A stretch of DNA of 64,000 nt from Spirochaetales bacterium (GTDB lineage: Bacteria > Spirochaetota > Spirochaetia > Sphaerochaetales > Sphaerochaetaceae): NCBI GenBank assembly GCA_018433865.1, contig JAHDQJ010000002.1:62001-126000 (forward strand), in the 5' to 3' direction. Within the stretch, counting starts at the first letter, position 1, and each line of letters begins with the position of its first letter. A program made the position numbers and the translations under genes. Shown here piece after piece: positions 47,698-63,693 of this stretch. The notes below the pieces were generated by a model. It was given only the letters and a program-made list of their open reading frames with translations. It was not told the origin of the DNA and ran no database searches.

Positions 47698-48234
47698 TTA
47701 TTTCCGGGCGATATATCCGCCGCTGATCACCTTCGAGTCCGTGACGACGATGACCGCACCGGGAAGATTGGTGTTGATCAAGGATACCGCCTCTGCGATG
47801 CGCTTGCGCTTCAGGTGAAGCAACAGGATGTCACGTTCTCCATTCCTTCCCGTCCCGTGGATGACCGTTGCGGCGAAGTTCTGATTCCTGAGCGTATCTG
47901 CCAATGCTTTGCTCTCGGGACTTTCGGGAACGATCACCTGGATCGAACTGAGACCGAACGCAAGCTTGTCCTCGAACCACGAACCCAAGTAATTGCCCAC
48001 AGAGAATGCGAGTGCGAAAACGACGATCCTGAGCGGATCCTCTTGGTATCCTTGCAAGACGGTGCCGGTGATGATCAACCACAGCAGGATGTCGAAGAAC
48101 GCGATGATCGTTCCCTTCATCCTTTCACCACGATTGATCAGTACCATGCGCAAGGTAGAGACCGTGACCTCGAGGATCTTTCCGAAAAAGATAATGAAAT
48201 AAATGCCGATACCCAAATTATCCAAGAAATCCAT
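47698..48234 (-). CDS. UPF0316 / DUF2179-type membrane protein
   Basis: 178 residues. Three N-terminal helices (about 8-30, 40-60, 65-85; GKILEVTVSTLRMVLINRG is the family signature region), then a cytoplasmic domain (ALADTLRNQNFAATVIHGTGRNG ... RKRIAEAVSLINTNLP) of the DUF2179 type, thought to bind a small ligand. Start ATG 48234 after AAGGAG. TATACT lies about 38 nt upstream. No known function. Confidence 0.85.
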   Translation of the reverse strand: MDFLDNLGIGIYFIIFFGKILEVTVSTLRMVLINRGERMKGTIIAFFDILLWLIITGTVLQGYQEDPLRIVVFALAFSVGNYLGSWFEDKLAFGLSSIQVIVPESPESKALADTLRNQNFAATVIHGTGRNGERDILLLHLKRKRIAEAVSLINTNLPGAVIVVTDSKVISGGYIARK

Positions 48235-50172: not shown

Positions 50173-50205
50173 GGATGCACCCGTTTGTCCGGGGAAGGAG
50201 AACCC

Positions 50206-50529
50206 ATGATCGAGAAATCCTATGTCTATGCAACCGACAACGCGAAGCATATCGAGAAACTTGTGGATGACGATCCGGTGATGATCAACCACATGGTACT
50301 GCCGAAAGGCGAGTGTGTTCCCGACCATCATGCGAACTCCCATGTGCACATGATCGTGGTGCGGGGCAACCTGACCTTGGAACTGGGAGAGCAAAACCCG
50401 CACGTCTACAGCCGCGGCTCCATCGTACACATCCCCTACAATACCTTCATGCGGGTTCGCAACGAGCACGACGAGACCTGCGAGTTCTTCGTGGTGAAGA
50501 GCCCGAGCCCACGCATCTACGGCAAGTAA
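50206..50529 (+). CDS. Small cupin-domain protein
   Basis: 107 residues, a single cupin_2 barrel. Cupin motif 1 is DHHANSHVHMIVVRGNLTLELG (His residues for a metal) and motif 2 VHIPYNTFMRVRNEHD. Probably binds a metal and a small ligand. GGGGAAGGAG precedes ATG 50206. It ends 8 bp from the convergent KdsC-like gene and is not obviously in an operon. Confidence 0.85.
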   Translation: MIEKSYVYATDNAKHIEKLVDDDPVMINHMVLPKGECVPDHHANSHVHMIVVRGNLTLELGEQNPHVYSRGSIVHIPYNTFMRVRNEHDETCEFFVVKSPSPRIYGK

Positions 50530-50537
50530 GAGGTTGG

Positions 50538-51062
50538 TCAGCTGCCGGGGAACCGGCCATGTTTCGCATAGGTCTCGATCAGCTGGGGAAAGTCGGGATG
50601 GTCGGCCAGGATATGCTCGACAAACTCCCTGAACGCTCCGTAGCCGCCCGGTGTGGCGCACACATGGTCGACCCGATCACGGACCCATTTCGGTGCGCTC
50701 GAGGGACAAGCGCTGAACCCCACCTGTTCCAATAGCGGCAGATCGTTCAGATCGTCACCGATGTAGGCGGTATGCTCAAGGGAAACACCGAGCGAATCAC
50801 AGAGCTGCCTCGCCGTGGCGAGCTTGTCCTTCACTCCCATATGGATATGGGGTGTCTTGAATTTCAACGCAACCAGCTGGGCCATCGGGATTTCCTCAGC
50901 GGTGATGATTCCTACGGGAATGCCAAGGTTCCGGCAATACCGCACCCCCCATCCGTCATAAACGCTGAATCGTTTCATGTATTCAGTCTCGGCGGTGAAG
51001 TAGAGCCCGCCATCAGTCCAGACCCCGTCGATATCACTCAAAACCAATTCGATCTTCTGCAT
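50538..51062 (-). CDS. KdsC-like HAD phosphatase
   Basis: 174 residues, a cap-less C0-type HAD. Motif I LSDIDGVWTDGGLYF, motif II region IITAEE, and motif IV YIGDDLNDLPLL all fit the KDO-8-phosphate phosphatase family. Whether the organism makes KDO is not shown here; no other KDO gene is in the window, so another sugar-acid phosphate is possible. GAGGAG upstream. It is last in the rpe-kinase-dehydrogenase row but separated by a hairpin. Confidence 0.85.
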   Translation of the reverse strand: MQKIELVLSDIDGVWTDGGLYFTAETEYMKRFSVYDGWGVRYCRNLGIPVGIITAEEIPMAQLVALKFKTPHIHMGVKDKLATARQLCDSLGVSLEHTAYIGDDLNDLPLLEQVGFSACPSSAPKWVRDRVDHVCATPGGYGAFREFVEHILADHPDFPQLIETYAKHGRFPGS

Positions 51063-51170: not shown

Positions 51171-52052
51171 TCACAGAATTCCTGCCATCTCCTCGAAGAC
51201 CTTGACGACAGCCGAGGCATTCTCCTCGCCGTAGCCTTTGTTGAGGCCGACCTTGTTGATCTCGTGTACGATGTTCGAAAGCAGCACGGGGACATTGAGC
51301 GATTCGCTGTAGTTGCGGATCAGCTCCGTATCCTTCACCATCGTCCTCAGGTGGAAGGCGACCTCGAAATTGCGGGATATGATCGAATTGCCGACACCAT
51401 CGACCACAGGAGAGCGGAAGTCGGAGTCCATCCACACACTGAGGACCTCCTTCGGGTCGAGTCCTGCCTTCTTCGCCAGGACCATCGATTCGCATAGCGC
51501 CGCGACAATCGTGGAGACCAGGTGGTTCCCGCACAACTTCGTTGCATATCCTTTGCCGCTCCCACCCATGTAGTGGACCGTCTCTCCCACGATCTGCAGG
51601 ATCGGAAGTGCCTTTCGGTAGGTATTCTCATCTCCCCCCGCCATGATCCACAATCCGCCGGAGTTGGCTTCGCCCTTCGATCCGTGCACCGGAGCATCCA
51701 GGAACCCGGCTCCCTTCTTCGCGAACTCCTTCGCAAGCCACAGACCGGTATCGGGCAGCTGCGTGCTCATGTCGATGAAGACCTGACCGTCCTTTGCGTT
51801 TGCGAACAGTCCGTCATCACCAAGAACGACCGAATCGAGTGCTTCCTTGTTCCACATCATGATGATGACGAAATCGGCAGCCTCTGCCGCCTTGGCAGGA
51901 GTCTTCGCATAGGTGGCTCCTGCGGCGACCAGGTCTTTCGCGTTGGATTCGGTCCTGTTGTAGCAGGATACACTGTACCCTTGCTTCAAAAGCACCTTGC
52001 CCATCCCGGTTCCCATGATCCCCGTTCCCATGATTGCTACATGCTTCCCCAT
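51171..52052 (-). CDS. NAD(P)-dependent beta-hydroxyacid dehydrogenase (HIBADH/GarR family)
   Basis: 293 residues. Rossmann motif VAIMGTGIMGTGMGKVL at the N-terminus, FIDMSTQLPDTG for the substrate site, GFLDAPVHGSKGEA, and the catalytic Lys in GYATKLCGNHL. Relatives oxidise 3-hydroxyisobutyrate, tartronate semialdehyde or similar. Start 52052 follows AAGGAG. It lies downstream of the FGGY kinase with its own hairpin-led leader. Confidence 0.9.
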   Translation of the reverse strand: MGKHVAIMGTGIMGTGMGKVLLKQGYSVSCYNRTESNAKDLVAAGATYAKTPAKAAEAADFVIIMMWNKEALDSVVLGDDGLFANAKDGQVFIDMSTQLPDTGLWLAKEFAKKGAGFLDAPVHGSKGEANSGGLWIMAGGDENTYRKALPILQIVGETVHYMGGSGKGYATKLCGNHLVSTIVAALCESMVLAKKAGLDPKEVLSVWMDSDFRSPVVDGVGNSIISRNFEVAFHLRTMVKDTELIRNYSESLNVPVLLSNIVHEINKVGLNKGYGEENASAVVKVFEEMAGIL

Positions 52053-52089
52053 AGCGTATCTCCTTTTGATTTCATTGATCTTTATGCAA

Positions 52090-52119
52090 GGTGCCGAAGA
52101 TCCGATTCTTTCCGGCACC
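52090..52119 (-). other. 5' leader hairpin of the HIBADH-type dehydrogenase
   Basis: Stem GGTGCCG/CGGCACC extended by AAAGA/TCTT. TATACT lies at 52133-52128, so a transcript from it would begin right at this hairpin; transcripts from upstream would meet it as an attenuating or stabilising element. Confidence 0.4.
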
Positions 52120-52138
52120 TATCCATCAGTATACCACT

Positions 52139-53683
52139 TCAAGATTCGAGCGTCTGTACCAACCGCTTGGAATCCTCCTTCAGGTGTTCATAGGTAGATT
52201 CGTACTGGCGCACATACTCCTTGTACAGCTCATGGTTTTCCGCGATCGGTTCGATGACCTTCTTGATCCGTACCATCTTTTCCGCGGCATTGCCAAGGTC
52301 GGGGTGTATGCCTGCCGCAACGGTAGCGGCAATGGCACTGCCGAGCGAGACTGCCTGCTGCTCGACAGGAATGGTGATCCGCTTGCCCGTAACATCGGCG
52401 TGGATCTGCATCCACAGATCGCTCTTGGTGGCTCCTCCGCAGGTGATGATCTCATCTATGTAGACGCCACCCTCCTCCATCCGTTTCAGGATGATGGCCG
52501 TACCATACACCACACCCTCCATGATTGCCCTGAACAGGTGCCCGGTTGTATGTTTCAACGTCAGGCCCCGGATGACGCCCCTGCTGTTCGCATCGACCCA
52601 CGGAGTCCGGTTGCCTTGCCAGTGCTCGAGCACGACCAAGCCTTCCGAGCCGGGAGGGACCTTTGCAGCTTTCTCATCCAGCAAGCGATAGATGTGGATG
52701 CCTCGTTCCTCCGCTTCCTTCTTGAGATCGGCGTTGAGGAAATTGGTGACGAACCACTTGATGATCGAGCCGGTCGAGATCTGTCCGGCTTCGACGACTT
52801 CCATGCCAGGAACGATTGCGCTCGGGAAGGTTCCGAAGATGCCGGGAGCATGGAGCTCCGTTTCGGTCATGCCGATGTGCAACTGTGATGAGCCGGTGAT
52901 GAGCGCCAGCTTGCCCGGCTTGAGCGCATTCACGCCGATCACGCCCATGTAGGCATCTGCTCCGCCACCCGCGACGGGGATGCCTTCGCGCAACCCGGTG
53001 AGTGCGGCGACCTTGGCGCTCACGCCTCCGATCACCTCGCCGAGATTCACCACCCGCTTCGGGAGCTTGTCAAAGATGTCACCCAACCCGATCTTCTCAT
53101 AAAGCGAGACCGGAAATCCTCCCTCTTTCTGGTTGTAGAACCATCTGATCGAGACCGTACAGATATTTGCGGTCACTTCTCCGGTGAGCCAGTAGGCTAT
53201 CCAGTCGGTATGTTCGAAGATCATGGAAGCTTGTGCATAGATTTCCGGTTCATGCCGCTTCACCCACAGGTTCTTGCAGGGGAACCATTCTGCGGAGACC
53301 TTTCCGTGTCCGACGTACTTGAGTGCACCATCGCCGCAGGCAGCGATATCATCCGCCTCTTTCGCCGCGCGGATATCCATCCACATGATCGCATCGCGCA
53401 GCGGCTTGCCTTCGCTGTCGAGATGGACTACCGTACAGCTGGTTCCGTCGATGCCGACACCTTCGATCTGTTCGGGCCGCACGGGACTGTCCTTGAATGC
53501 AAGCCGGATGGATTCCACCATCGAGTCGGTCCATTGCTGCACGCTCTGCTCGCACCACCCGGGATGCTGGTGTATGTTCGTGTTCTCACTGCATCCGAAA
53601 CTGATGCAATCGCCCTTCTCGTTGTAGATTCCGGTCCTGATGCTCTCCGTTCCTGCATCAATTCCCAATACGTACCGTTCCAT
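52139..53683 (-). CDS. FGGY family carbohydrate kinase (first of two)
   Basis: 514 residues. Phosphorylates a sugar or sugar alcohol with ATP. N-terminal ATP-fold LGIDAGTESIRTGIYNEKG, substrate-side GVGIDGTSCTVV, and C-terminal GGGADAYMGVIG and ITCGGATKSDLWMQ. It looks nearer ribulokinase-type members than glycerol kinase, but the substrate cannot be named. Start 53683, not 53689, because of ribosome-site spacing (GAGGGGG). Placed 24 bp after the Rpe-type epimerase gene, suggesting a pentulose or related ketose. Confidence 0.92.
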   Translation of the reverse strand: MERYVLGIDAGTESIRTGIYNEKGDCISFGCSENTNIHQHPGWCEQSVQQWTDSMVESIRLAFKDSPVRPEQIEGVGIDGTSCTVVHLDSEGKPLRDAIMWMDIRAAKEADDIAACGDGALKYVGHGKVSAEWFPCKNLWVKRHEPEIYAQASMIFEHTDWIAYWLTGEVTANICTVSIRWFYNQKEGGFPVSLYEKIGLGDIFDKLPKRVVNLGEVIGGVSAKVAALTGLREGIPVAGGGADAYMGVIGVNALKPGKLALITGSSQLHIGMTETELHAPGIFGTFPSAIVPGMEVVEAGQISTGSIIKWFVTNFLNADLKKEAEERGIHIYRLLDEKAAKVPPGSEGLVVLEHWQGNRTPWVDANSRGVIRGLTLKHTTGHLFRAIMEGVVYGTAIILKRMEEGGVYIDEIITCGGATKSDLWMQIHADVTGKRITIPVEQQAVSLGSAIAATVAAGIHPDLGNAAEKMVRIKKVIEPIAENHELYKEYVRQYESTYEHLKEDSKRLVQTLES

Positions 53684-53707
53684 GGACATTCCCCCTCTCG
53701 ATTTGGA

Positions 53708-54361
53708 TTATGCGATCAAGGACTGCAAGAGTCCGACATTCTCTTCGATGGAGCCGCAGAAGATGCCGCTGCCGATGATCGCGATATCTGCACCGGCGGC
53801 CTTGACCGACCGGATCGTATCCTTGTTCACGCCGCCATCGACGGAAATCTTCGTGCGCAGTCCGTGGCGGCTGATGTAATCCGCGCTCTGCTCGACCTTC
53901 CTGAGCACCGTCGCATTGAAGGGCTGCCCTCCGATTCCCGGGTTCACCGCGAGGATGTTCACCGCCTCGACTCGCTCCAGCATCGGCTCGATCAGCGCAT
54001 AGGGATTGTCGGGCACGAAGGTGAGGCAGACATCCCGTCCCTGCTCATGAACCGTGTCGATCATCCGATGCAGGGCCTCCCCGGCCGTCTCGAACTGAAG
54101 ATTGAGACGATCCGCATCCGTCTGCAGGAACATGGAGAGGATCGATTCCATGTTGTGCACCGCAAGATGGACATCGAAGTAGGATTTCGTGACCGTCCGC
54201 AAATCGGTGATCAGCTGACTGCCGAACAGCAGATATTTCGTATAATGCCCATCACTGACGTCAAAGTGGAAGGAAGATATCCCGCACCGCTCAGCCTCCA
54301 GAAGATCCCGTGCGATATAGGCATGATTTGCAGCCAGCAGGGAAGCACACAGTTCCATCAT
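53708..54361 (-). CDS. Ribulose-phosphate 3-epimerase family protein
   Basis: 217 residues, a TIM barrel. Metal/catalytic residues are kept: SSFHFDVSDGHY, DVHLAV and SVDGGVN. The DGHYTKYLLFG loop differs from the DGHFVPN of housekeeping Rpe and is more like AlsE/SgcE-type epimerases, so the substrate may be a different ketose phosphate. GGAGG precedes ATG 54361. First gene of the minus-strand operon with the FGGY kinase. Confidence 0.87.
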   Translation of the reverse strand: MMELCASLLAANHAYIARDLLEAERCGISSFHFDVSDGHYTKYLLFGSQLITDLRTVTKSYFDVHLAVHNMESILSMFLQTDADRLNLQFETAGEALHRMIDTVHEQGRDVCLTFVPDNPYALIEPMLERVEAVNILAVNPGIGGQPFNATVLRKVEQSADYISRHGLRTKISVDGGVNKDTIRSVKAAGADIAIIGSGIFCGSIEENVGLLQSLIA

Positions 54362-54440
54362 GTTCACCTCCAACCTTCCGTGGGAACCAGTATAGCACGA
54401 AGGCATTTGTTTCTGACAAGGACAACCCAGTCCTCTTTTC

Positions 54441-54468: not shown

Positions 54469-54507
54469 TCTGATTCGACTATCTTTTACATTAGTCATGG
54501 ATTGTCA

Positions 54508-54536
54508 TGGACAACCAGGAATGGTCGCGCTATACT
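54508..54536 (+). promoter_or_regulatory. Predicted leaderless promoter of the C_GCAxxG gene
   Basis: -35 TGGACA (54508-54513, 5/6), 17-bp spacer, -10 TATACT (54531-54536, 5/6), 6 nt (GGCGAC) to ATG 54543. The hexamers and spacing are the same as at mnmE. Confidence 0.65.
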
Positions 54537-54542
54537 GGCGAC

Positions 54543-55079
54543 ATGGACGACACAAGAAAAGAACAGCTCGCGCAACGAGCCTATGCATTGGGATTCTCCT
54601 ACGAACAGACCTACCGAGGGTGTGCACAGTGCACGCTTGCTGCATTGCAGGATGCCCTTGGCCTTCCCGACGATCAGGTGTTCCGCGCAGCAAGTGCACT
54701 CTCCTCAGGCGGCGGACTCACCTGTGCAGGCTCCTGCGGCGGATTTGCTGGCGGACTGCTGTTCATCGGCTCACTGCTCGGCAGAAGACGCGAGTTCTTC
54801 GACAATGACCAGGAGTTCAAGTACCTTTCATTCGATCTCGGCAGAAAATTGCACGACCGATTCATCGCCGAGTACGGGACCGTGACGTGCAACTGCATCC
54901 ATCTCAACCTGTTCGGGCGCACGTACGACATGCAGGACCCTGTCGACAAACAGCAGTTCAACGATGATGGCGCACACACCGACAAGTGCACCTCAGTGGT
55001 CGCCAACGCAGCCCGCTGGACGGTAGAAATCATCTACGATGTACTTGCAGAGAGGGGCTTGCTTCCCGAGAACCCATAA
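54543..55079 (+). CDS. C_GCAxxG_C_C family protein
   Basis: 178 residues with the cysteine pattern that names the family: YRGCAQCTLAAL, then LTCAGSCGGFAGG, VTCNCIHL and DKCTSVV. Cysteines may bind a metal or cluster; some relatives are linked to redox proteins, but no function is established. It has no ribosome site and is predicted leaderless. Divergent from the epimerase operon and upstream of deoR. Confidence 0.82.
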   Translation: MDDTRKEQLAQRAYALGFSYEQTYRGCAQCTLAALQDALGLPDDQVFRAASALSSGGGLTCAGSCGGFAGGLLFIGSLLGRRREFFDNDQEFKYLSFDLGRKLHDRFIAEYGTVTCNCIHLNLFGRTYDMQDPVDKQQFNDDGAHTDKCTSVVANAARWTVEIIYDVLAERGLLPENP

Positions 55080-55131: not shown

Positions 55132-55180
55132 GTTCATAACAACATTTTTTTTGTTGTAATTATCATACGATGAAGGGTCC

Positions 55181-55960
55181 ATGCAAAGCTCGGCGAAACG
55201 GAAACAGTACATCCAATCCAAACTCGATGCAGACCAGTCGGTCCAGGTAGGAAAGCTGGCCCAGGAGCTTGGCGTGTCGGAGATGACCATCCGCAGGGAC
55301 CTGAACGACCTCGAGCGGATCGGTGTACTGAGAAAGACCCACGGCGGTGCGGTGAAGGATGTAAGTCGCTCGTACGAGCCACCATTCAGCCTTCGCATGC
55401 ACGAATCGCTTGAAGAGAAACGGAGGATCGGGCGTGAGGCTGTCCGCTATGTGAACGAAGGAGATACCATCGCCATCGATTCGGGGACGACCACGATCGA
55501 ACTCGCAAAGGAGCTGGTCTCGTTCAAGAACCTCACGATCGTCACCACCAGCATCCACATCGCAATGATCTTCCTCGACCATCCCAGCATCACCGTACTG
55601 CTTTCCGGGGGAGTATTGCGAAAACACGAAGGATCCTTGGTCGGGAGTTTCGCGCGTTCTACGTTCAACTCCCTCTATTTCGATACGTTCTTCGTGTCTG
55701 CCGCGGCGCTGAGCGAAGAGGCAGGACTTTCCGACTACATCATCGAGGATGCAACGGTCAAGCGGATGATCATGGAGCACGCGAAGCGGACGGTAGCACT
55801 GGTGCATGCCGAAAAATTCGGACAAGCCGCGTTCGCCCAGATCGCACCGTTGGATGAGATCGATGTCCTGATCACAGACAAACAACCCTATCCTGCATTG
55901 CAGCACGAGTTGCAGAGGCAGAAGGTGACGACAATCATTGCACACGCAAAGGAGAATTGA
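55181..55960 (+). CDS. DeoR family transcriptional regulator
   Basis: 259 residues. N-terminal DeoR winged helix (VGKLAQELGVSEMTIRRDLNDLERIGVL, then RKTHGGAV). C-terminal sugar-phosphate sensor domain with GDTIAIDSGTTTIELAKEL and LVGSFARSTF. Such proteins respond to phosphorylated sugars. It leads the operon with BtpA, M29 and the second FGGY kinase and probably also controls the divergent epimerase operon. AAGGG precedes the ATG. Confidence 0.92.
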   Translation: MQSSAKRKQYIQSKLDADQSVQVGKLAQELGVSEMTIRRDLNDLERIGVLRKTHGGAVKDVSRSYEPPFSLRMHESLEEKRRIGREAVRYVNEGDTIAIDSGTTTIELAKELVSFKNLTIVTTSIHIAMIFLDHPSITVLLSGGVLRKHEGSLVGSFARSTFNSLYFDTFFVSAAALSEEAGLSDYIIEDATVKRMIMEHAKRTVALVHAEKFGQAAFAQIAPLDEIDVLITDKQPYPALQHELQRQKVTTIIAHAKEN

Positions 55961-55961
55961 A

Positions 55962-56765
55962 ATGAAGTGGTTGCAAGAAGTATTCAATGTAAGGAAGCCG
56001 GTGATCGCCATGTGTCACCTGCAGCCCCTTCCGGGCGACCCCGGATACGATAAGGAAGGCGGAATCGCGAAGGTTCTCGATCTCGCCAGGAAGGACCTGA
56101 AAGCCCTGCAGGACGGTGGTGTGGATGCCGTCATGTTCTCGAATGAGTTCAGCCTGCCCTACCTCACCACGGTCGAGCCCATCACCTATACCACGATGGC
56201 ACGGATCATCGGCGAGCTGAAACACGATATCACGATTCCCTATGGGGTGAACGTGCTGTGGGATCCGAAGGCATCGATCGACCTTGCGGTCGCGACCGAC
56301 GCGCTCTTCGTGCGTGAGATATTCACCGGTGTCTATGCGAGTGACTTCGGTCTGTGGAACACCAATGTCGGCAGCGTGGTCCGTCACCGGATGCACGTCG
56401 GAGGCGAGCACGTGAGACTGTTGTTCAATATCGTCCCCGAGGCCGCGTCCTATCTCGGCCAGCGGAACATCGTGGACATCGCCAAATCCACGGTATTCAA
56501 CAACAAGCCCGATGCGTTGTGCGTCTCAGGTCTCACCGCAGGTGCAGAGACCGATTCCTCGGTGCTCAAGGCAGTGAAGGATGCGGTCCCGGGAACCGCG
56601 GTGTTCGCAAACACCGGCGTGCGGCTCTCGAACGTCCAGCAGCAGCTTTCGATCGCCGATGGTACGGTGACCGCGACCACATTCAAGCGTGACGGGGTTT
56701 TCGAGAATGAAGTCGACGTGAAGCGGGTCAAGGAATTCATGGACAAGGTCAAGGAAATCCGCTGA
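55962..56765 (+). CDS. BtpA/SgcQ family protein
   Basis: 267 residues, a predicted (beta-alpha)8 barrel. Family landmarks: IAMCHLQPLPGDPGY at the N-terminus, ALQDGGVDAVMFSNEFSLPY, IPYGVNVLWDPKASIDLAVA and VSGLTAGAETDSSVL. Named after a cyanobacterial photosystem I protein but widespread in sugar operons, such as E. coli sgcQ; activity unknown. AAGGAG precedes ATG 55962, 1 bp after the deoR stop. Confidence 0.85.
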   Translation: MKWLQEVFNVRKPVIAMCHLQPLPGDPGYDKEGGIAKVLDLARKDLKALQDGGVDAVMFSNEFSLPYLTTVEPITYTTMARIIGELKHDITIPYGVNVLWDPKASIDLAVATDALFVREIFTGVYASDFGLWNTNVGSVVRHRMHVGGEHVRLLFNIVPEAASYLGQRNIVDIAKSTVFNNKPDALCVSGLTAGAETDSSVLKAVKDAVPGTAVFANTGVRLSNVQQQLSIADGTVTATTFKRDGVFENEVDVKRVKEFMDKVKEIR

Positions 56766-56789: not shown

Positions 56790-57860
56790 ATGGACCAGAG
56801 ATGGAAAAGACTTGGAGCATTGTTGGTGAACTATTCGACCCGCGTCCAACCGGGCGAACGGGTGATGATAGCCATGATCGAACCGGAAACATTCCCTCTG
56901 GCCTTGGCGGTGTATGAAGCTGCCGTGAAGGCGGGGGGCCTTCCCCAGGTACAGTTGCTCTCGGAGCGGTTCCGGCGTGCACTGTTAGGTTTCGGTAACG
57001 AGAGCCAGGTGAACTGGGTACCTGAGATCGAGCTCTACGGAATGGAGTGGGCCGATGTCTACATCGGTCTGCGTGGTGCCCATAATCTTTATGAGCTCCA
57101 GGACATCAGTGCAGCGAAGCTCGCGGCCAACCAATCGGCGATGGGGAAAATCTCGAGTGCACGGTGGAAGCATACCCGATGGACTTTGGTGCGGGTGCCC
57201 AACGAATCGTTCGCACAACAAGCGCAGACAAGTCATGAACAGATAGAATCGATGTTCTTCGACTCCTGCTTCCTCGATTGGGAGAAGGAAGGTGCCAAGT
57301 GGGCACGTTGGGCAGAGCGTCTCGAGAAGGGCAAGGAGATCAGGATCACCGGGTCGGGAACCGACCTTTCCTTTTCAGTCGCCGGGCGCAAGTGGGTTCC
57401 CTTCGCAGGAGTCAACAATATGCCTGACGGAGAAATCGCGACCGCCCCTGTGGTGGAGACCGTCGACGGAACGATCCGTTTCGACCACCCGGGAGTACTC
57501 AGCGGACGGTTGATCCACGGAATCGAGCTCACCTGGCGTGAGGGGAAGCTGGTCAAGGCCTCCTCGGAAACCGAACGGGAATTCTTCAAGTCGGTGATCT
57601 CGAAGGATGCAGGTTCCTCGAACATCGGTGAATTCGCATTCGGCACCAATTACGGGGTCGATCGGTTCTGCAACGACATCCTTATAGATGAGAAGATCGG
57701 CGGGACGATCCACATCGCACTCGGCCGGGCTTATCCGGAGTGTGGGGGAACGAACGAATCCTCGATCCACTGGGACATCATCAAGGATATCCGGAAAGAG
57801 GGCCGGGTCACACTCGACGGAGAAGTGATCCTGGAAAACGGCAAGATACTCCTGGACTGA
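56790..57860 (+). CDS. M29 family aminopeptidase
   Basis: 356 residues. Aminopeptidase T/AmpS-type metallopeptidase. The metal-ligand residues appear kept: Glu in NNMPDGEIATAP, Glu in SNIGEFAFGTN, His in GTIHIALG and the His-x-Asp of SIHWDII. Hence probably active. Unusual place for a peptidase, inside a sugar-kinase operon; E. coli sgc has an M42 peptidase (SgcX) in the same role. AAGGAG upstream of ATG 56790. Its natural substrate may be an aminoacylated or glycated sugar, as inference. Confidence 0.9.
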   Translation: MDQRWKRLGALLVNYSTRVQPGERVMIAMIEPETFPLALAVYEAAVKAGGLPQVQLLSERFRRALLGFGNESQVNWVPEIELYGMEWADVYIGLRGAHNLYELQDISAAKLAANQSAMGKISSARWKHTRWTLVRVPNESFAQQAQTSHEQIESMFFDSCFLDWEKEGAKWARWAERLEKGKEIRITGSGTDLSFSVAGRKWVPFAGVNNMPDGEIATAPVVETVDGTIRFDHPGVLSGRLIHGIELTWREGKLVKASSETEREFFKSVISKDAGSSNIGEFAFGTNYGVDRFCNDILIDEKIGGTIHIALGRAYPECGGTNESSIHWDIIKDIRKEGRVTLDGEVILENGKILLD

Positions 57861-57872
57861 GGAGCGATGAAG

Positions 57873-59357
57873 ATGAAACCATGTTTCCTGGGGATAGATA
57901 TCGGGACAGGTTCCGCGAAAGGAACGGTAGTCGGTCTTGACGGGACCGTCCTCGCCGAGGCATCGGTATCGCATGCGCTGAGCTCCCCCGAGCCGGGATG
58001 GTTCGAGCAGGATGCCGATGCGATCTGGTGGCATGACACCGTCCACCTTGCGAGAAAGCTGCTCGAACAACTTTCCGGCAAGGGAGTTCCCGCTTCGGCG
58101 TTGCAAGGCATGTGTGTCAGTACCACCGCCCCCTGCGTACTTCCGATCGACAAGTCGGGAAAGCCACTGCGACCGGGGATCATGTACGGTATCGATACCC
58201 GAGCCTCGCGGCAGATCGCACAGATCGAAGAGGCAATCGGGAAGGAACGCATCTTCGCGATGACCGGCCAGCACCTTTCCTCCCAATCATGCTGTCCCAA
58301 GATCATGTGGATCGAGCAACATGAGAAAGAGGTGTGGGCAAAGACCGATACGATACTCACCTCCAGCGGATATATCGTGTTCCGCCTCACCGGAAGAAAG
58401 ACCGTAGACACCTATGATGCCATCGGATACGCACCGCTGTTCAACATCCGGCAGAAGAAGTGGGACACCACATACGAAGCACAGCTGTTCAGCACACGAC
58501 TGCTCCCGGAGATCCTCTGGACCACGGAGATCGCGGGAACGGTAAGCAAGCATGCTTCACAGGAGACCGGGCTGCCCGAAGGATTGCCCGTTCTCACCGG
58601 TACCGCAGATGCGGCGGCGGAGGCGATGAGCTGTGGCGTGAGCGCAGTCGGGGACATGATGATGATGTATGGCAGCAGCAACTTCTTCATCATGCTCACC
58701 TCCGCGCTCAAGCCGATCCCCCAGTTCTGGGCATCGAACTATCTTGTTCCCGGAACCACCGTGCTCACGGGAGGCATGGCAACCGTAGGAAGCCTCTTCA
58801 CCTGGTTCAACCAGACCTTCCCGGGCAGGACCTTCCGCGAATGGGAAGCTCTCGCCGCCGACTCCAGACCGGGGGCGAACGGAGTGACGATCCTTCCCTA
58901 CTTCGCCGGAGAACGCACACCACTGTTCGACCCCCATGCGAAGGGGGTGTTCTTCGGCATGCAGCTCACGACAAGTCCCGGTGACATGTTCCAGGCGCTT
59001 CAGGAGGCGATTGGATTCGGAGTCAGGCACAACCTTGAGGTTCTGGGGAAAGCGGGAGAGCGAGCGAACCGCATCATCGCGATCGGCGGAGTCACCTCGA
59101 GCGACATGACGATGCAGATCATCACCGATATCGCCGGCTGCCCGCAACAAATCCCCTCCCAACGGTTGGGAGCGTGCTATGGCGACGCGTTCCTCGCCGC
59201 ATACGCAACCGGGGCGATCGACTCGATGGAACAGATCCATGATTGGGTGAAGATCGAGAAGGAATATGTGCCGAACCCTGCTCATGCCGAGGCATACGCA
59301 CAATCCTACGGAACCTACCGCGAACTCTATGAGACGACGAAACACCTGATGAAATGA
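57873..59357 (+). CDS. FGGY family carbohydrate kinase (second of two)
   Basis: 494 residues, xylulokinase-like. FLGIDIGTGSAKGTVVGLDG (ATP fold), MYGIDTRASRQ in the substrate domain where xylulokinase has W-D-R, GTADAAAEAMSCG and AIGGVTSSDMTMQ. Start 57873 is preferred to 57867 by ribosome-site spacing (GGAG). Last gene of the DeoR operon. Its relation to the first FGGY kinase is distant; the two probably act on different sugars. Confidence 0.9.
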   Translation: MKPCFLGIDIGTGSAKGTVVGLDGTVLAEASVSHALSSPEPGWFEQDADAIWWHDTVHLARKLLEQLSGKGVPASALQGMCVSTTAPCVLPIDKSGKPLRPGIMYGIDTRASRQIAQIEEAIGKERIFAMTGQHLSSQSCCPKIMWIEQHEKEVWAKTDTILTSSGYIVFRLTGRKTVDTYDAIGYAPLFNIRQKKWDTTYEAQLFSTRLLPEILWTTEIAGTVSKHASQETGLPEGLPVLTGTADAAAEAMSCGVSAVGDMMMMYGSSNFFIMLTSALKPIPQFWASNYLVPGTTVLTGGMATVGSLFTWFNQTFPGRTFREWEALAADSRPGANGVTILPYFAGERTPLFDPHAKGVFFGMQLTTSPGDMFQALQEAIGFGVRHNLEVLGKAGERANRIIAIGGVTSSDMTMQIITDIAGCPQQIPSQRLGACYGDAFLAAYATGAIDSMEQIHDWVKIEKEYVPNPAHAEAYAQSYGTYRELYETTKHLMK

Positions 59358-59396: not shown

Positions 59397-59897
59397 CTAT
59401 CTCACGACAAAGTAACAGCCGAACTGCGCGTCAAGCTCATAGGCGAGGAAATCCTCGTCAGGGGTGTTCTCGTAGAACAGCACGAACGTGTTCGCAACCT
59501 CGGCCTGTGTCAGGGGGGCGTGATGCCACACTCCTTTCTTGAACCTGACGGCGCTCCCTTTCGGCACGGAGAAGGCCTTGACCGTATCGAGGTCGGGCAT
59601 CTTCGGATCAGCCGCGTTCGAGAGCGCGGCAACCACGATGATGTCCTCCGTGGGAATGAGCACCTCACTGGTCCGTTCGTGCCGTTCCAATGTATGCTCC
59701 TCAAGTCCGTTCCTTCCATAGGTCCTGACGATGGAGACCGAGGTATGTCCCTCGTGGTCCATCACCGCCAGTTTGTTCCAGAACGCGAGTTCCTCACCAC
59801 TGCTGTCCGGCTTTCGAAGCGCGCTCGAGATGCATTGTCCATAAGGGGCAAAGCTTGCATCGGTTGCGGGAACCTGATGGATTTCGATCCTCTTCAT
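59397..59897 (-). CDS. Ureidoglycolate-lyase (AllA) family protein
   Basis: 166 residues, cupin-like. Features of the family: FAPYGQCISSA near the N-terminus, ERHERTSEVLIPTEDIIVVAAL, VRFKKGVWHHAPL with metal-type His, and FVLFYENTPDEDF. No allantoin or purine-degradation gene is near; it closes an operon with DhaK, DhaL and sugar permeases, so a role in sugar-acid metabolism is more likely than ureidoglycolate. Clear GGGGGG ribosome site. Confidence 0.82.
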   Translation of the reverse strand: MKRIEIHQVPATDASFAPYGQCISSALRKPDSSGEELAFWNKLAVMDHEGHTSVSIVRTYGRNGLEEHTLERHERTSEVLIPTEDIIVVAALSNAADPKMPDLDTVKAFSVPKGSAVRFKKGVWHHAPLTQAEVANTFVLFYENTPDEDFLAYELDAQFGCYFVVR

Positions 59898-59912: not shown

Positions 59913-60545
59913 TCACGCCACGTAATCGGCAAAGACCTGTATGACCATCGCGCCGACCGTGGCTCCGGGATCCTGTGCGGTACGGGACTTCTCCTGATAA
60001 TAGGCGGCCCTTCCATGCTGTGCGACCATATCCTTCGTAGCTTCGACCCCTGCGAACGCCGCATCCTTCGCCGCAGCCATCGCATCTTTCAACGAAGCAC
60101 CCGAGGAGGCCTGTTCAGCCAATACGCGGGCAGCGGGCTCCAAGGCATCGATGATCGTCTTCTCGCCGACCTTCGACTTGCCTCTCTCGGCAATGCCGTC
60201 AGTGAAGGCACGCCAGAAATCAGCCATATCGGCTGCATTGACGGTGTCCTTTCCTTTCAGGGCTTTGCCTGCACGCATGAAACCGGTAGCCATCAACGTT
60301 CCCATCGTAGAGGGAGCTGCCTTCGCCATCGTAATCCCTGCTTTCATCACCAGTGAACCGATCTCATCATCGGCATACTCGGCTGCGAATTCGCTTGCAG
60401 ATTTGAACACGGCAGCCATCGTGAGGCCGAGGTCGCCATCTCCCATCACGCTGTCCAACCCGATGAGGTATTCCTTCTGTGATTCGCTCATCGATTTCAA
60501 GGCCGAGAAGATGGCCTGAAAGTCCTTTTTCGACAAAGTTTCCAT
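59913..60545 (-). CDS. dhaL: Dihydroxyacetone kinase, nucleotide-binding subunit DhaL
   Basis: 210 residues, all-helical ADP/ATP-binding subunit. LDSVMGDGDLGLTMA carries the Asp residues that hold Mg-nucleotide; STMGTLMATGFMRAG and PGATVGAMVI follow. It transfers phosphate to the ketose held by DhaK. No DhaM (PTS) gene is in the window, so use of ATP or of a distant DhaM is open. 23 bp after dhaK; AAGGAG present. Confidence 0.92.
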   Translation of the reverse strand: METLSKKDFQAIFSALKSMSESQKEYLIGLDSVMGDGDLGLTMAAVFKSASEFAAEYADDEIGSLVMKAGITMAKAAPSTMGTLMATGFMRAGKALKGKDTVNAADMADFWRAFTDGIAERGKSKVGEKTIIDALEPAARVLAEQASSGASLKDAMAAAKDAAFAGVEATKDMVAQHGRAAYYQEKSRTAQDPGATVGAMVIQVFADYVA

Positions 60546-60568
60546 CGTTCGCTCCTTTGCGCCCTCTA

Positions 60569-61573
60569 TCAGAGCTGGACCTGTTCGAAGAACGGCGTAT
60601 TGGCGGGCATGGAGAGATAGGTCTTCAGCTCATCGTCTAGTTTCAGCAATGTGATCGAAGCTCCGGACATCTCCATCGAAGTCGCGAACTCACCCACATA
60701 GACATGGAATACCTTGATCCCGTGCTCCTTGAGCATCTCATCCACCTTCCGGTACATGATGTAGAGCTCTTCCTTCGGAGTGGCACCCAGTCCGTTGACC
60801 AGGACGGCGACTTCATCCCCCTTCACATAGGGCAGGTCCGCAAGGATCGCATCAAGCATCTGCTTCACGACCTCATCGGCACTTTTCAGCGGTCCGCGCT
60901 CGATACCGGGCTCGCCGTGGATACCCATACCGATCTCCATCTCGCCTTCGCCGATGGAGAAGGAAGGCTTGCCTACCTCGGGAACGATACATGGGGAGAG
61001 CGCGACACCCATGGTCCGGACATTGTCGCACGCCTTCATGGCGACGCGCTTCACCTCATCAAGATCCTTCATCGCCGCGGCACATGCGCCAGCCACCTTA
61101 TAGACGAAGAAAATGCCTGCGACTCCACGGCGCTTATGCTCTTCTCCCTTCTTCGATGAGGCGACATCCTCGCCGGCGACCACCTGCTCCACCCTGATAT
61201 CCTCCATGTCGGCCATCTCGGCAGCCATGTCGAAATTCATGATGTCGCCACCATAATTGCCATAGATATACAGGACTCCCGCGCCGGAGTCGATTGCCTT
61301 GGTCACCTCGAGCATCTGTTCAGCGCTCGGGGACTGGAAGACCCCGCCGACGGAACAACCATCGAGGATGCCATCCCCCACATAGCCGAGGAAGAGCGGA
61401 AGGTGGCCGCTTCCACCACCGGTAGCCAAGCCGACCTTCCCTTTCTTGACCTTAGCGGTCACGACACAACGGAGATCATCATTCACATACGTGAGCTTAT
61501 CGGGATGGGCTGCCATGATTCCCCGGATCATGTCATCGACAAATGTCTCTGGCTTGTTCAAGAACTTTTTCAT
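60569..61573 (-). CDS. dhaK: Dihydroxyacetone kinase, substrate-binding subunit DhaK
   Basis: 334 residues. It binds the ketose as a hemiaminal on a His: GMGIHGEPGIERGP contains it. GGGSGHLPLFLGYVGDGILDG and YGNYGGDIMNFDMA are the sugar/dimer motifs. Relatives act on dihydroxyacetone and on erythrulose-type C4 ketoses. AGGAGG upstream. Lies between sugar permeases and DhaL. Confidence 0.93.
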   Translation of the reverse strand: MKKFLNKPETFVDDMIRGIMAAHPDKLTYVNDDLRCVVTAKVKKGKVGLATGGGSGHLPLFLGYVGDGILDGCSVGGVFQSPSAEQMLEVTKAIDSGAGVLYIYGNYGGDIMNFDMAAEMADMEDIRVEQVVAGEDVASSKKGEEHKRRGVAGIFFVYKVAGACAAAMKDLDEVKRVAMKACDNVRTMGVALSPCIVPEVGKPSFSIGEGEMEIGMGIHGEPGIERGPLKSADEVVKQMLDAILADLPYVKGDEVAVLVNGLGATPKEELYIMYRKVDEMLKEHGIKVFHVYVGEFATSMEMSGASITLLKLDDELKTYLSMPANTPFFEQVQL

Positions 61574-61627: not shown

Positions 61628-62665
61628 TCAGGATGCCGTCGCGGCAACCTGTTCCTTCATCCGTTTCACCCGCTTGTAATCACCATACTGCTGTGCGATG
61701 AAGTTGATCGCCATGACGAGCAGGAGCGCGAACCCCCACATGAACTTCCTGAAGAACGGGCTGAAGGCCATGATGTTCAATCCGCTCTGGGTGACCTGAA
61801 GCGTGATGATCGCCATGAGCAGTCCGGGGATGTTCCCGAAACCGCCGTCCGGATCGGCACCACCGAGCACCACGACGAGGATCGCCTGGAGCAAATAGGC
61901 AGAACCGTAACCGGGGCGCATCGAGTTTGCGCGCGATATCATGATGATCGAAGCGACTCCCGCCAACAGCGCCGTGACGATGTAGGTCTTGATGATCACC
62001 TTGGAGTTGTCCACTCCGGAGTACCGCGATACCGTCGGGTTGGTTCCGAGCATGTACATGTTGAATCCCTGTTTTGTTCGATTGAGGAGCAGAGCAACTA
62101 AAACCGCACCTATAACGAAAAGGATGAAGGGAATCGGGATGCCGAGCACGACGCCGTTTCCGATCGTCATGAATGCGTCGGGAAATCCTCCGATGCTGTA
62201 CCCTTTCGTGATGACGGTCGCCAATCCGAGGAACAGGCCTTGCGTCCCCAAGGTTGCCAGGATTGGCGGAACGCCGACGAACGCTATCATCATGCCATTG
62301 AACAGACCGCAGAGCACCGCGATTCCGAGCACTGCGATGATTGAGAGGAATATCGCGGTTCCCGCGGGCATCCCCGCGGTATTCGCCGAATTCAGGATGA
62401 CCGCAGCAACAACTCCCGTGAAGTTCGCTGCCGCGACGACCGAGAGATCGATCCCGCCGGTGATCATCGCAAGCATCATCGCGAGTGCGAGGAACCCGAA
62501 CTCGGGGAACTGCGACGCCATGGACTGTATGTTGCTCCCCCTGAGGAAACTTGTGGGCAACAGGATCGTCATGATGATGATCGAAAGCAACATGATGATG
62601 AACAGGTATTTGTTTTTCGGTTCCTTGAACTTGTACTGTGTCAGTTTGGAAATATTCAGCTTCAT
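61628..62665 (-). CDS. Sugar ABC transporter permease (RbsC type), second
   Basis: 345 residues with eight to ten helices. GFLALAMMLAMITGGIDLSVVAA is the family's signature region; FNGMMIAFVGVPPILATLGTQG and VVLGGADPDGGFGNIPG follow. Inner-membrane channel subunit for a sugar or polyol. Start 62665 follows GAGG; the long open frame to 63130 is spurious, crossing the other permease gene. A stop of 11 bp separates it from the first permease. Confidence 0.93.
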   Translation of the reverse strand: MKLNISKLTQYKFKEPKNKYLFIIMLLSIIIMTILLPTSFLRGSNIQSMASQFPEFGFLALAMMLAMITGGIDLSVVAAANFTGVVAAVILNSANTAGMPAGTAIFLSIIAVLGIAVLCGLFNGMMIAFVGVPPILATLGTQGLFLGLATVITKGYSIGGFPDAFMTIGNGVVLGIPIPFILFVIGAVLVALLLNRTKQGFNMYMLGTNPTVSRYSGVDNSKVIIKTYIVTALLAGVASIIMISRANSMRPGYGSAYLLQAILVVVLGGADPDGGFGNIPGLLMAIITLQVTQSGLNIMAFSPFFRKFMWGFALLLVMAINFIAQQYGDYKRVKRMKEQVAATAS

Positions 62666-62676
62666 GGTTCTACCTC

Positions 62677-63693
62677 TTACTCCTCTTCCTTCACGATGAT
62701 CCGACGACCGCTGTCCTGGAACTTGGCCTGCAGGTAGGTGATGGACACACCGATGAGGAGGACCAGTCCGACGAAGAATTGCTGCCAATAGGAGGAGAGT
62801 CCGATCATGATCAGGTTCTTCTCGAGGATCGTGATGAGGATGACTCCGATCATCGTTCCGGTGATGGTTCCCGAGCCTCCGCTGATGCGAGCTCCTCCGA
62901 GGACTACCGCTGCGATGACGCTCAATTCGGTTCCGACCAGATAGTTCGGGTTGCTGTAGCGGATCAGAGACAGGTGCATGACTCCCATGATGCCTGCGAG
63001 CAGTCCCGCATACATGTAAACGAAGAACTGAATGCGCCGGGTGTTGAATCCTGCCCGCTTCGCAGCTTCCAGGTTTCCCCCGATCGCGAAGATTCCACGA
63101 CCGATCATGGTGAACTTCAGGATGAACCATGTGACCAGGATGATCACCACCAGGATGACGAAGAACACCGACAGTCCGAAAGTTGATCCGTCGGGCCTGG
63201 ACACGTTCAGCACGTTGAATGCACCGAAGTCCTTGATGCTTTGCGGAAGCCCTCCGACGTTCACGGCTTTCGTACCTACGAACTCAAGCATCGCACCATG
63301 ATACAGACTGCTCGTACCGAGCGTCACGATAAGGGTGGGAAGCTTGAAGAGTGAGACGAATACCGCGTTTATCGCTCCGAGAGTGACTCCCAGGAGCATC
63401 GAGATGGCAAATGCGAACCATATGTTGTCGAATCCCGTCGCGATCAGCACGTTCACCGAAATATACTGCCCGACGATCGCGATCGTCGTACAAGAGACAT
63501 CGACTCCACCCGAGATCAAGACGAGAAAGATGCCGATCGCAAGGATGGCGGTTCCCGAACTGCTCCTGAGCAAGTCGAAGAGATTCTCCAGTGTCAGGAA
63601 CGCCGGGTTGATGGCTGTGACGAAGGCGGAGAAGAGAATGACGATGAACAATACATATGTTTCGCTATGTCTGAACAGCTGTTTGATCTTCAT
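62677..63693 (-). CDS. Sugar ABC transporter permease (RbsC type), first
   Basis: 338 residues, paralogous in layout to the next permease: AILAIGIFLVLISGGVDVSCTT, FKLPTLIVTLGTSSLYHG and VVLGGARISGGSGTITG. Two different permeases suggest a heterodimeric channel, as in LsrC/LsrD. CAGGAG lies 7 nt before ATG 63693, which overlaps the ATPase stop by ATGA. No binding protein is seen in the window; it may lie beyond the right edge. Confidence 0.93.
   Translation of the reverse strand: MKIKQLFRHSETYVLFIVILFSAFVTAINPAFLTLENLFDLLRSSSGTAILAIGIFLVLISGGVDVSCTTIAIVGQYISVNVLIATGFDNIWFAFAISMLLGVTLGAINAVFVSLFKLPTLIVTLGTSSLYHGAMLEFVGTKAVNVGGLPQSIKDFGAFNVLNVSRPDGSTFGLSVFFVILVVIILVTWFILKFTMIGRGIFAIGGNLEAAKRAGFNTRRIQFFVYMYAGLLAGIMGVMHLSLIRYSNPNYLVGTELSVIAAVVLGGARISGGSGTITGTMIGVILITILEKNLIMIGLSSYWQQFFVGLVLLIGVSITYLQAKFQDSGRRIIVKEEE

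Follow-up and report, generated by a model that had tools for sequence, protein, structure and literature searches.

The window, by which we mean the whole stretch of 64,000 nucleotides analysed here, comes from a 2.9 Mb genome and carries a cluster of sugar genes with the following features (coordinates, strand, assignment and its basis):

51171..52118, − strand: dehydrogenase of the hydroxyisobutyrate/tartronate-semialdehyde type (profile match)
52139..53689, − strand: second FGGY kinase, ribulokinase-like, score below the cut-off (profile match)
53708..54406, − strand: ribulose-phosphate 3-epimerase family protein (profile match)
55139..55157, no strand: short inverted repeat ACAACA-T7-TGTTGT, 5' of the DeoR gene (read by eye)
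55181..55960, + strand: DeoR-family regulator, first gene of the operon (profile match)
55962..56765, + strand: BtpA/SgcQ-type barrel protein, likely ATG at 55962 (the mechanical ORF runs from TTG 55938)
56790..57860, + strand: M29 metallopeptidase of the operon-type subfamily, 356 aa (ORF and Pfam Peptidase_M29 match)
57867..59357, + strand: FGGY carbohydrate kinase, nearest to xylulose-kinase models (though below their cut-off) and to PDB 3ifr
59397..59897, − strand: ureidoglycolate-lyase-like protein, also present in some spirochaete loci of the M29 cassette
59913..60545, − strand: DhaL-like (Dak2) kinase subunit (profile match)
60569..61573, − strand: DhaK-like kinase subunit (profile match)
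61628..62668, − strand: sugar ABC permease, Rbs type; start at about 62668, set by eye within a longer mechanical ORF
62677..63693, − strand: second sugar ABC permease, Rbs type; the ATPase and binding protein lie beyond the window end (L171)

The DeoR, BtpA, M29 and FGGY genes follow one another in this order on the + strand, separated by 1, 24 and 6 bp, so the M29 gene does sit between BtpA and FGGY with short gaps on either side (24 bp and 6 bp), as the original prediction had it. Its start at 56790 is preceded by AGGAG, the BtpA gene ending at 56765, and the inverted repeat at 55139..55157 is a possible operator of the operon. Past the end of the window (L171, G000:C18), we found the genes of the transporter ATPase and its binding protein and, named by eye, those of a LacI-type regulator and an E1/E2 dehydrogenase set; this set consists of E1 alpha, E1 beta and E2-type genes 3' of the transporter (L171:5427-8739, by eye), and E1-type and transketolase-type genes are likewise found 3' of the transporter in L038. 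The DhaL and DhaK genes of the window (59913-61573) are kept in several spirochaete cassettes; beside them we noticed no DhaM gene, and their product may phosphorylate another ketose. A putative redox protein of the C_GCAxxG_C_C type (54507-55079) separates the divergent halves of the locus, and at the left edge of the sugar cluster an ORF resembling HAD-type phosphatases (50538-51062) adjoins a cupin-like one (50185-50529), both read by eye.

The M29 enzyme and its subfamily

The window protein matches the Pfam family Peptidase_M29 (PF02073) with 195 bits, for a cut-off of 27. Aligned via a Listeria homologue, its residues E215, E281, H308, Y315, H327 and D329 correspond to Glu216, Glu281, His308, Tyr315, His327 and Asp329 of Lmo1603, the aminopeptidase T of Listeria monocytogenes, a protein of the same length class whose six catalytic residues have nearly the same numbering, and in which single mutants of each of the six are described as having lost activity (PMC4661694). 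All six are kept: the two Glu, the His and the His-x-Asp motif reported from the sequence at the outset are there, and the catalytic Tyr (Y315) is to be added to them. Across the alignment of the 89 operon-type rows defined below, five of these residues are present at 100% and Y315 at 98%, and the enzyme looks active from its intact catalytic set, in line with the first impression.

The predicted structure, built from a 58-sequence alignment (mean pLDDT 94), shows the same full-length fold and the same metal ligands as AmpS (1zjc; Z 39.5, rmsd 2.4, 349 residues aligned), PepS (4icq/4ics; Z 39.3) and AmpT (2ayi; Z 36.4). These three differ from it by their sequences, with 22 to 24% identity in structural alignments, and by the length of their solved chains, 397 to 413 residues vs 356. 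NicX, a 2,5-dihydroxypyridine dioxygenase of about 350 residues (7cn3, 7cup), also has the same overall fold, but the model is closer in structure to the aminopeptidases than to NicX, the comparison giving Z 26.1 (rmsd 4.3, 300 residues aligned) against 36 to 39 for the aminopeptidases. The Listeria record that we took as the homologue of Lmo1603, annotated as M29 aminopeptidase T, is 35% identical to the window protein, but its gene lies near murC outside any sugar operon, it belongs to a separate clade, and it differs at R313, E31 and G119.

In the M29 tree, built by a quick method with SH-aLRT support only, the 89 operon-type rows lie on one side of a branch (support 86) and 25 sister rows on one side of another (81); the 89 rows stand for 86 loci, three of them being extra copies in L115 and L119, and two row pairs are the same sequence. 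Membership of the window protein in the Lmo1603-type aminopeptidase T clade was considered and discarded, the protein being placed within the 89-row operon clade. Residues E31, G69, G119 and R313, among others, are invariant in this clade, and the sister group mostly has other residues at these positions. R313, which lies between the metal ligand H308 (five residues back) and Y315 (two residues on), is found in 89/89 operon-type rows, the sister group having Asn (15/25) or Gln (5/25) at this position. The window genome itself also carries a sister-type M29 gene (G000:C4). When the M29 protein was searched against a viral collection, no relative was found there.

Linkage of M29 to BtpA and FGGY across genomes

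Scanning a bacterial genome collection yielded 276 M29 relatives, of which the best 80 were kept, and the neighbours were called with family models made from the loci themselves. Within 6 kb of M29, in these best 80 of 276, BtpA is present at 63/80 loci, FGGY at 66/80 and both at 58/80; M29 directly adjoins BtpA or FGGY (less than 150 bp, same strand) in 55/80, and a DeoR gene lies within 6 kb in 33/80. One has to keep in mind that in 42 of the 80 loci at least one flank is shorter than 6 kb. Among the 38 in which both flanks reach 6 kb, BtpA was found in 34, FGGY in 31 and both in 31; the four well-flanked loci devoid of BtpA are L075, L080, L120 and L133 (the last has a BtpA gene about 8 kb off), FGGY is absent from seven, and both absences count against the pathway reading developed below.

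The 80 loci, being the best of 276, are not a random sample, and we therefore relied on a sister-group control. Around 20 sister M29 loci of the Listeria aminopeptidase T type (15 from spirochaete-class genomes and five plasmid records including Listeria, with flanks of about 3 to 10 kb), BtpA was found at none and FGGY at a single one, about 6 kb away. The gene order of the cassettes is variable, with BtpA-M29-FGGY as well as M29-FGGY-BtpA and the transporter on either side, so that we are not dealing with a single unshuffled stretch of DNA. The labelled tree rows come from Spirochaetota, Chloroflexota, Thermodesulfobacteriota, Atribacterota, Actinomycetota and Bacillota, as well as, with one locus each, from Acidobacteriota, Armatimonadota, Verrucomicrobiota, Bacteroidota, Deinococcota and Thermomicrobiota; most are MAG records, but named strains are included, such as Bifidobacterium cebidarum, Pseudonocardia kunmingensis and Bellilinea caldifistulae. 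Since the arrangement is kept in so many phyla, a chance association is excluded. As the enzyme looks active and lies beside BtpA and FGGY in most loci, M29 probably works in a sugar pathway.

Among 61 related genomes, an operon-type M29 (criterion of at least 44% identity) was found in five, the window's included. Linkage in close relatives, on which the original prediction was to stand or fall, is retained where the gene exists: FGGY is next to M29 in all four other carriers and BtpA in three of them (so in four of the five carriers in all), the fourth contig being 3.4 kb long. It does not extend to the closest genomes, as those of the same genus or family are without the gene; since none of the four other carriers belongs to either, the distribution of the cassette is patchy, and it is probably mobile. 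Seen from the BtpA side, 149 spirochaete-phylum genomes gave five BtpA matches above 200 bits, including the window's: M29 lies within 5 kb in three, one match sits at a 5.6 kb contig end without M29, and G097 holds one of the five with M29 absent.

BtpA, the sgc operon and companion peptidases

Proteins that E. coli and Salmonella records annotate as SgcQ share 68% identity with the window BtpA. In the BtpA tree, a starred clade of 62 rows (100/100) holds the window BtpA together with the SgcQ proteins of E. coli K-12 and Salmonella; 58 of its 62 rows are M29-linked, and 8 of the 66 M29-linked rows fall outside it. The grouping of SgcQ with the BtpA of L119 and L130 has a support of 92/67 only, and larger starred clades joining SgcQ with M29-linked BtpA reach 99/85, 100/89 and 100/100; this tree carries a long-branch warning for L164, L115, L162, L101, L038, L139 and L163. 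The predicted BtpA model is a TIM barrel (pLDDT 95), which fold comparison places among phosphate-binding-type barrels (KDPG aldolase, HisF, GGGP synthase and HPS, with ties within one Z unit), and a PDB sequence search gave no convincing relative (best E 0.11).

The sgc operon of E. coli comprises, as annotated in the records, the DeoR-type SgcR, the epimerase SgcE, SgcQ, and SgcX, which is an M42 peptidase; Salmonella sgc likewise pairs SgcQ with M42. The view that peptidases are unexpected in such an operon thus finds no support: sgc has one in both species, and the Oscillospiraceae cassette L119 has M42 as well as M29. The window shares with sgcABCEQX a BtpA of the SgcQ clade, a DeoR-type regulator, a gene of the ribulose-phosphate-epimerase family and a gene of a metallo-aminopeptidase family; since SgcE and the window protein were the input for the epimerase model, its matches in these two are uninformative. 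The two differ in that sgc has M42 for M29 and a PTS for the ABC transporter and FGGY kinase: no galactitol-type PTS was found beside the window operon, which is accompanied by Rbs-type ABC genes and FGGY kinases instead, and the SgcX-based model gave no M42 match between positions 48000 and 64000 of the window, M29 being there in its place. The substrate of sgc is described as unknown in a 2026 study, according to which the operon is induced on nitrogen-containing carbon sources and its mutants have no growth defect (PMC13343008).

Peptidase-type enzymes are recurrent in BtpA sugar cassettes. The L119 operon reads binding protein, ATPase, permease, permease, DeoR, M42, FGGY, BtpA, M29, M29, M29, one M42 and three tandem M29 genes sharing a BtpA/FGGY operon (L119:5364-12175). 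Locus L124 (Oscillibacter) has a single M29 and, past the transporter and DeoR at a distance of 6 to 7 kb, two M42 genes with FGGY; BtpA was not found within the 16.5 kb of sequence of this locus. In L057, L059 and L071 (Desulfobacterales type), M24 and creatininase-family genes lie 3' of FGGY, and their near relative L060 gave no match to either. C-N bond hydrolases thus recur in BtpA/FGGY cassettes, beside M29 itself in small numbers only: M24 at 3/80 and M42 at 2/80 (L119 and L124) of the best 80 of 276 loci.

Five plasmid BtpA loci, of 148 records, were read. Those of Thermus, Labrenzia, Rhizobium and Shinella carry FGGY but not M29, and their BtpA falls outside the large SgcQ-type clade, that of Rhizobium (L139) being joined with weak support (83/60) to a smaller M29-linked BtpA group. 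The fifth, from Phyllobacterium (L136:4205-8822), has an SgcQ-type BtpA whose neighbours are genes for a PIG-L deacetylase, an alpha/beta hydrolase and a xylose-isomerase-like protein, with neither FGGY nor M29 nor M42, so SgcQ-type BtpA does occur without an M29 or M42 partner.

Substrate, proposed pathway and alternatives

In three cassettes (those of the window genome, L088 and L109), the binding protein has 5bra as best PDB match and 9i1m as second. The latter is AauA of enterohaemorrhagic E. coli in complex with D-ribulose, bound with a KD of about 2 uM (PMC12307932), which the three proteins match with 170 to 226 bits. In the alignment, the binding protein of the window genome keeps five of the six AauA sugar contacts named in that paper (Lys37, Trp43, Glu118, His167 and Glu196, with Met for Ser223), and that of L088 keeps four of six (Asp for Glu196, Ala for Ser223). 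As a counterweight to D-ribulose, 5bra is named ribose-binding, and three plasmid relatives of it, read among 764 records, lie near rbsK and deoC, that is, near ribose/deoxyribose genes. The alignments point to a pentose- or pentulose-like ligand, perhaps altered near C5. In other cassettes (17/80 of the best 80 of 276), MalFG-type transporters lie within 6 kb, and the ligand may therefore differ between cassettes.

The smallest cassette that looks complete, L109 of Bifidobacterium cebidarum, consists of a binding protein, an ATPase, two permeases, DeoR and three enzymes, BtpA, M29 and FGGY. To our knowledge, no activity has been assigned to any operon-type M29. The membership of M29 in the cassette, its conserved catalytic set, its separate clade and the presence of M42 in the same kind of cassette are directly supported, and from these we infer a pathway, including the order of its steps, the substrate, the type of bond, and what BtpA and FGGY do in it. 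The cassette would consist of a sugar ABC transporter (of pentose type in the window), the BtpA/SgcQ barrel, the FGGY kinase and M29, often with a DeoR regulator. The transporter would import a small pentose-like compound; M29, using a predicted dinuclear metal centre with two Glu, two His and one Asp as ligands, would hydrolyse an amide- or ester-type bond in this compound or in an intermediate; the kinase would phosphorylate the sugar part; and BtpA, as a phosphate-binding-type TIM barrel, would yield a product entering central metabolism.

The Rbl/Aau D-ribulose systems are the closest point of comparison on the transport side, AauA being related to the cassette binding proteins and Rbl also having an FGGY kinase; the words BtpA and aminopeptidase are absent from the main text of their description, in which the transporter and kinase are the parts that Citrobacter rodentium needs for D-ribulose (PMC12307932). 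If these two suffice for plain D-ribulose, M29 and BtpA must handle something extra. The amide- or amine-linked sugar conjugate suggested by the original prediction is a fair guess, with the qualification that the resemblance of the binding protein to a D-ribulose binder argues for a small, pentose-sized substrate.

That the operon-type M29 hydrolyses an amide- or ester-type bond within a sugar-catabolic cassette is a proposal that we make with moderate confidence. The main rival is a non-peptidase, metal-dependent reaction, for which the M29 scaffold would have been repurposed to act on a sugar or sugar phosphate (isomerisation, lactone opening or C-C cleavage). Two facts that count against hydrolysis speak for it, as the transporter of the three cassettes appears pentose-specific, with little room for a conjugate, and the dioxygenase NicX is a precedent for non-peptidase chemistry on this fold; in addition, R313, invariant and close to the catalytic Tyr (two residues ahead of it), may contact an anionic group of the substrate and could bind a phosphate or carboxylate. 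However, all six aminopeptidase residues of Lmo1603 are kept, and M42, an unrelated family, is found in the same kind of cassette. Aminopeptidase chemistry is what the M29 and M42 families have in common. We prefer hydrolysis because the full aminopeptidase set is retained and an unrelated aminopeptidase family replaces or joins M29, and we consider the repurposed scaffold a serious but rather unlikely alternative.

An ordinary broad-specificity aminopeptidase that happens to reside in the operon, with no role in the pathway, is improbable. Such an enzyme would share the fold and active site of the M29 aminopeptidases, as ours does, and M29 genes are common in the window genome, which has three further matches; yet the linkage is kept in many phyla despite the changing gene order, BtpA is missing from all 20 sister loci, and the operon-type proteins form a separate clade with invariant residues of their own. 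That M29 processes, instead of a metabolite, some peptide or protein with a part in regulating or assembling the pathway would suit the peptidase fold and the three tandem M29 genes of L119, but is highly improbable when the remaining cassette genes are for metabolite uptake and phosphorylation.

Going one step further than hydrolysis by M29, a widespread and undescribed pathway of M29, SgcQ-type BtpA and FGGY might split a small amino-acid-linked (amide or ester) pentose derivative, E. coli sgc being the same pathway with M42 for M29 and a PTS for the transporter and kinase; this wider explanation is a tentative one. Three results count against the hydrolytic pathway proposed above: an epimerase paralleling SgcE lies within 6 kb of M29 at 3/80 only of the best 80 of 276 loci, the M42 neighbours are as rare as given above, and no recurrent amino-acid pathway appeared among the neighbours, as judged from the 25 commonest of the 87 families among 53 hand-picked genes (of 174 unassigned neighbours), 20 of which were scanned singly.

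We thus regard the window protein as a functional variant of the known M29 family in a conserved cassette. Literature searches, most subscription journals being out of reach, showed among the papers listed no description of the cassette and no account of M29 in BtpA or FGGY operons. The M29 cassettes, some of them in named strains, add independent organisms in which to approach the question of sgc function, which becomes testable from a second side, and their binding protein allows ligand screening. Given this linkage, many genes annotated as aminopeptidases may be sugar-pathway enzymes.

Some cassettes hold further genes. IF-2B-family genes lie within 6 kb of M29 at 8/80 of the best 80 of 276 loci (L121, L123, L125, L128, L129, L132, L134 and L135), often two in tandem, and L121, L123 and L125 also have luciferase-like monooxygenase genes. 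The IF-2B family includes sugar-1-phosphate isomerases, and these loci may represent a variant pathway. In an Anaerolineales locus (L068:11113-12267), a RuBisCO-like gene lies 45 bp 3' of M29, with BtpA and DhaKL at the same locus. Taken together, the binding protein, FGGY, IF-2B and the RuBisCO-like gene speak of pentose phosphate-type chemistry. An aminotransferase gene (L058:6960-8141) lies near a cassette closely resembling the window's, and in the Atribacterota loci L081, L089 and L092, a URO-D-family gene is found about 200-250 bp 5' of M29.
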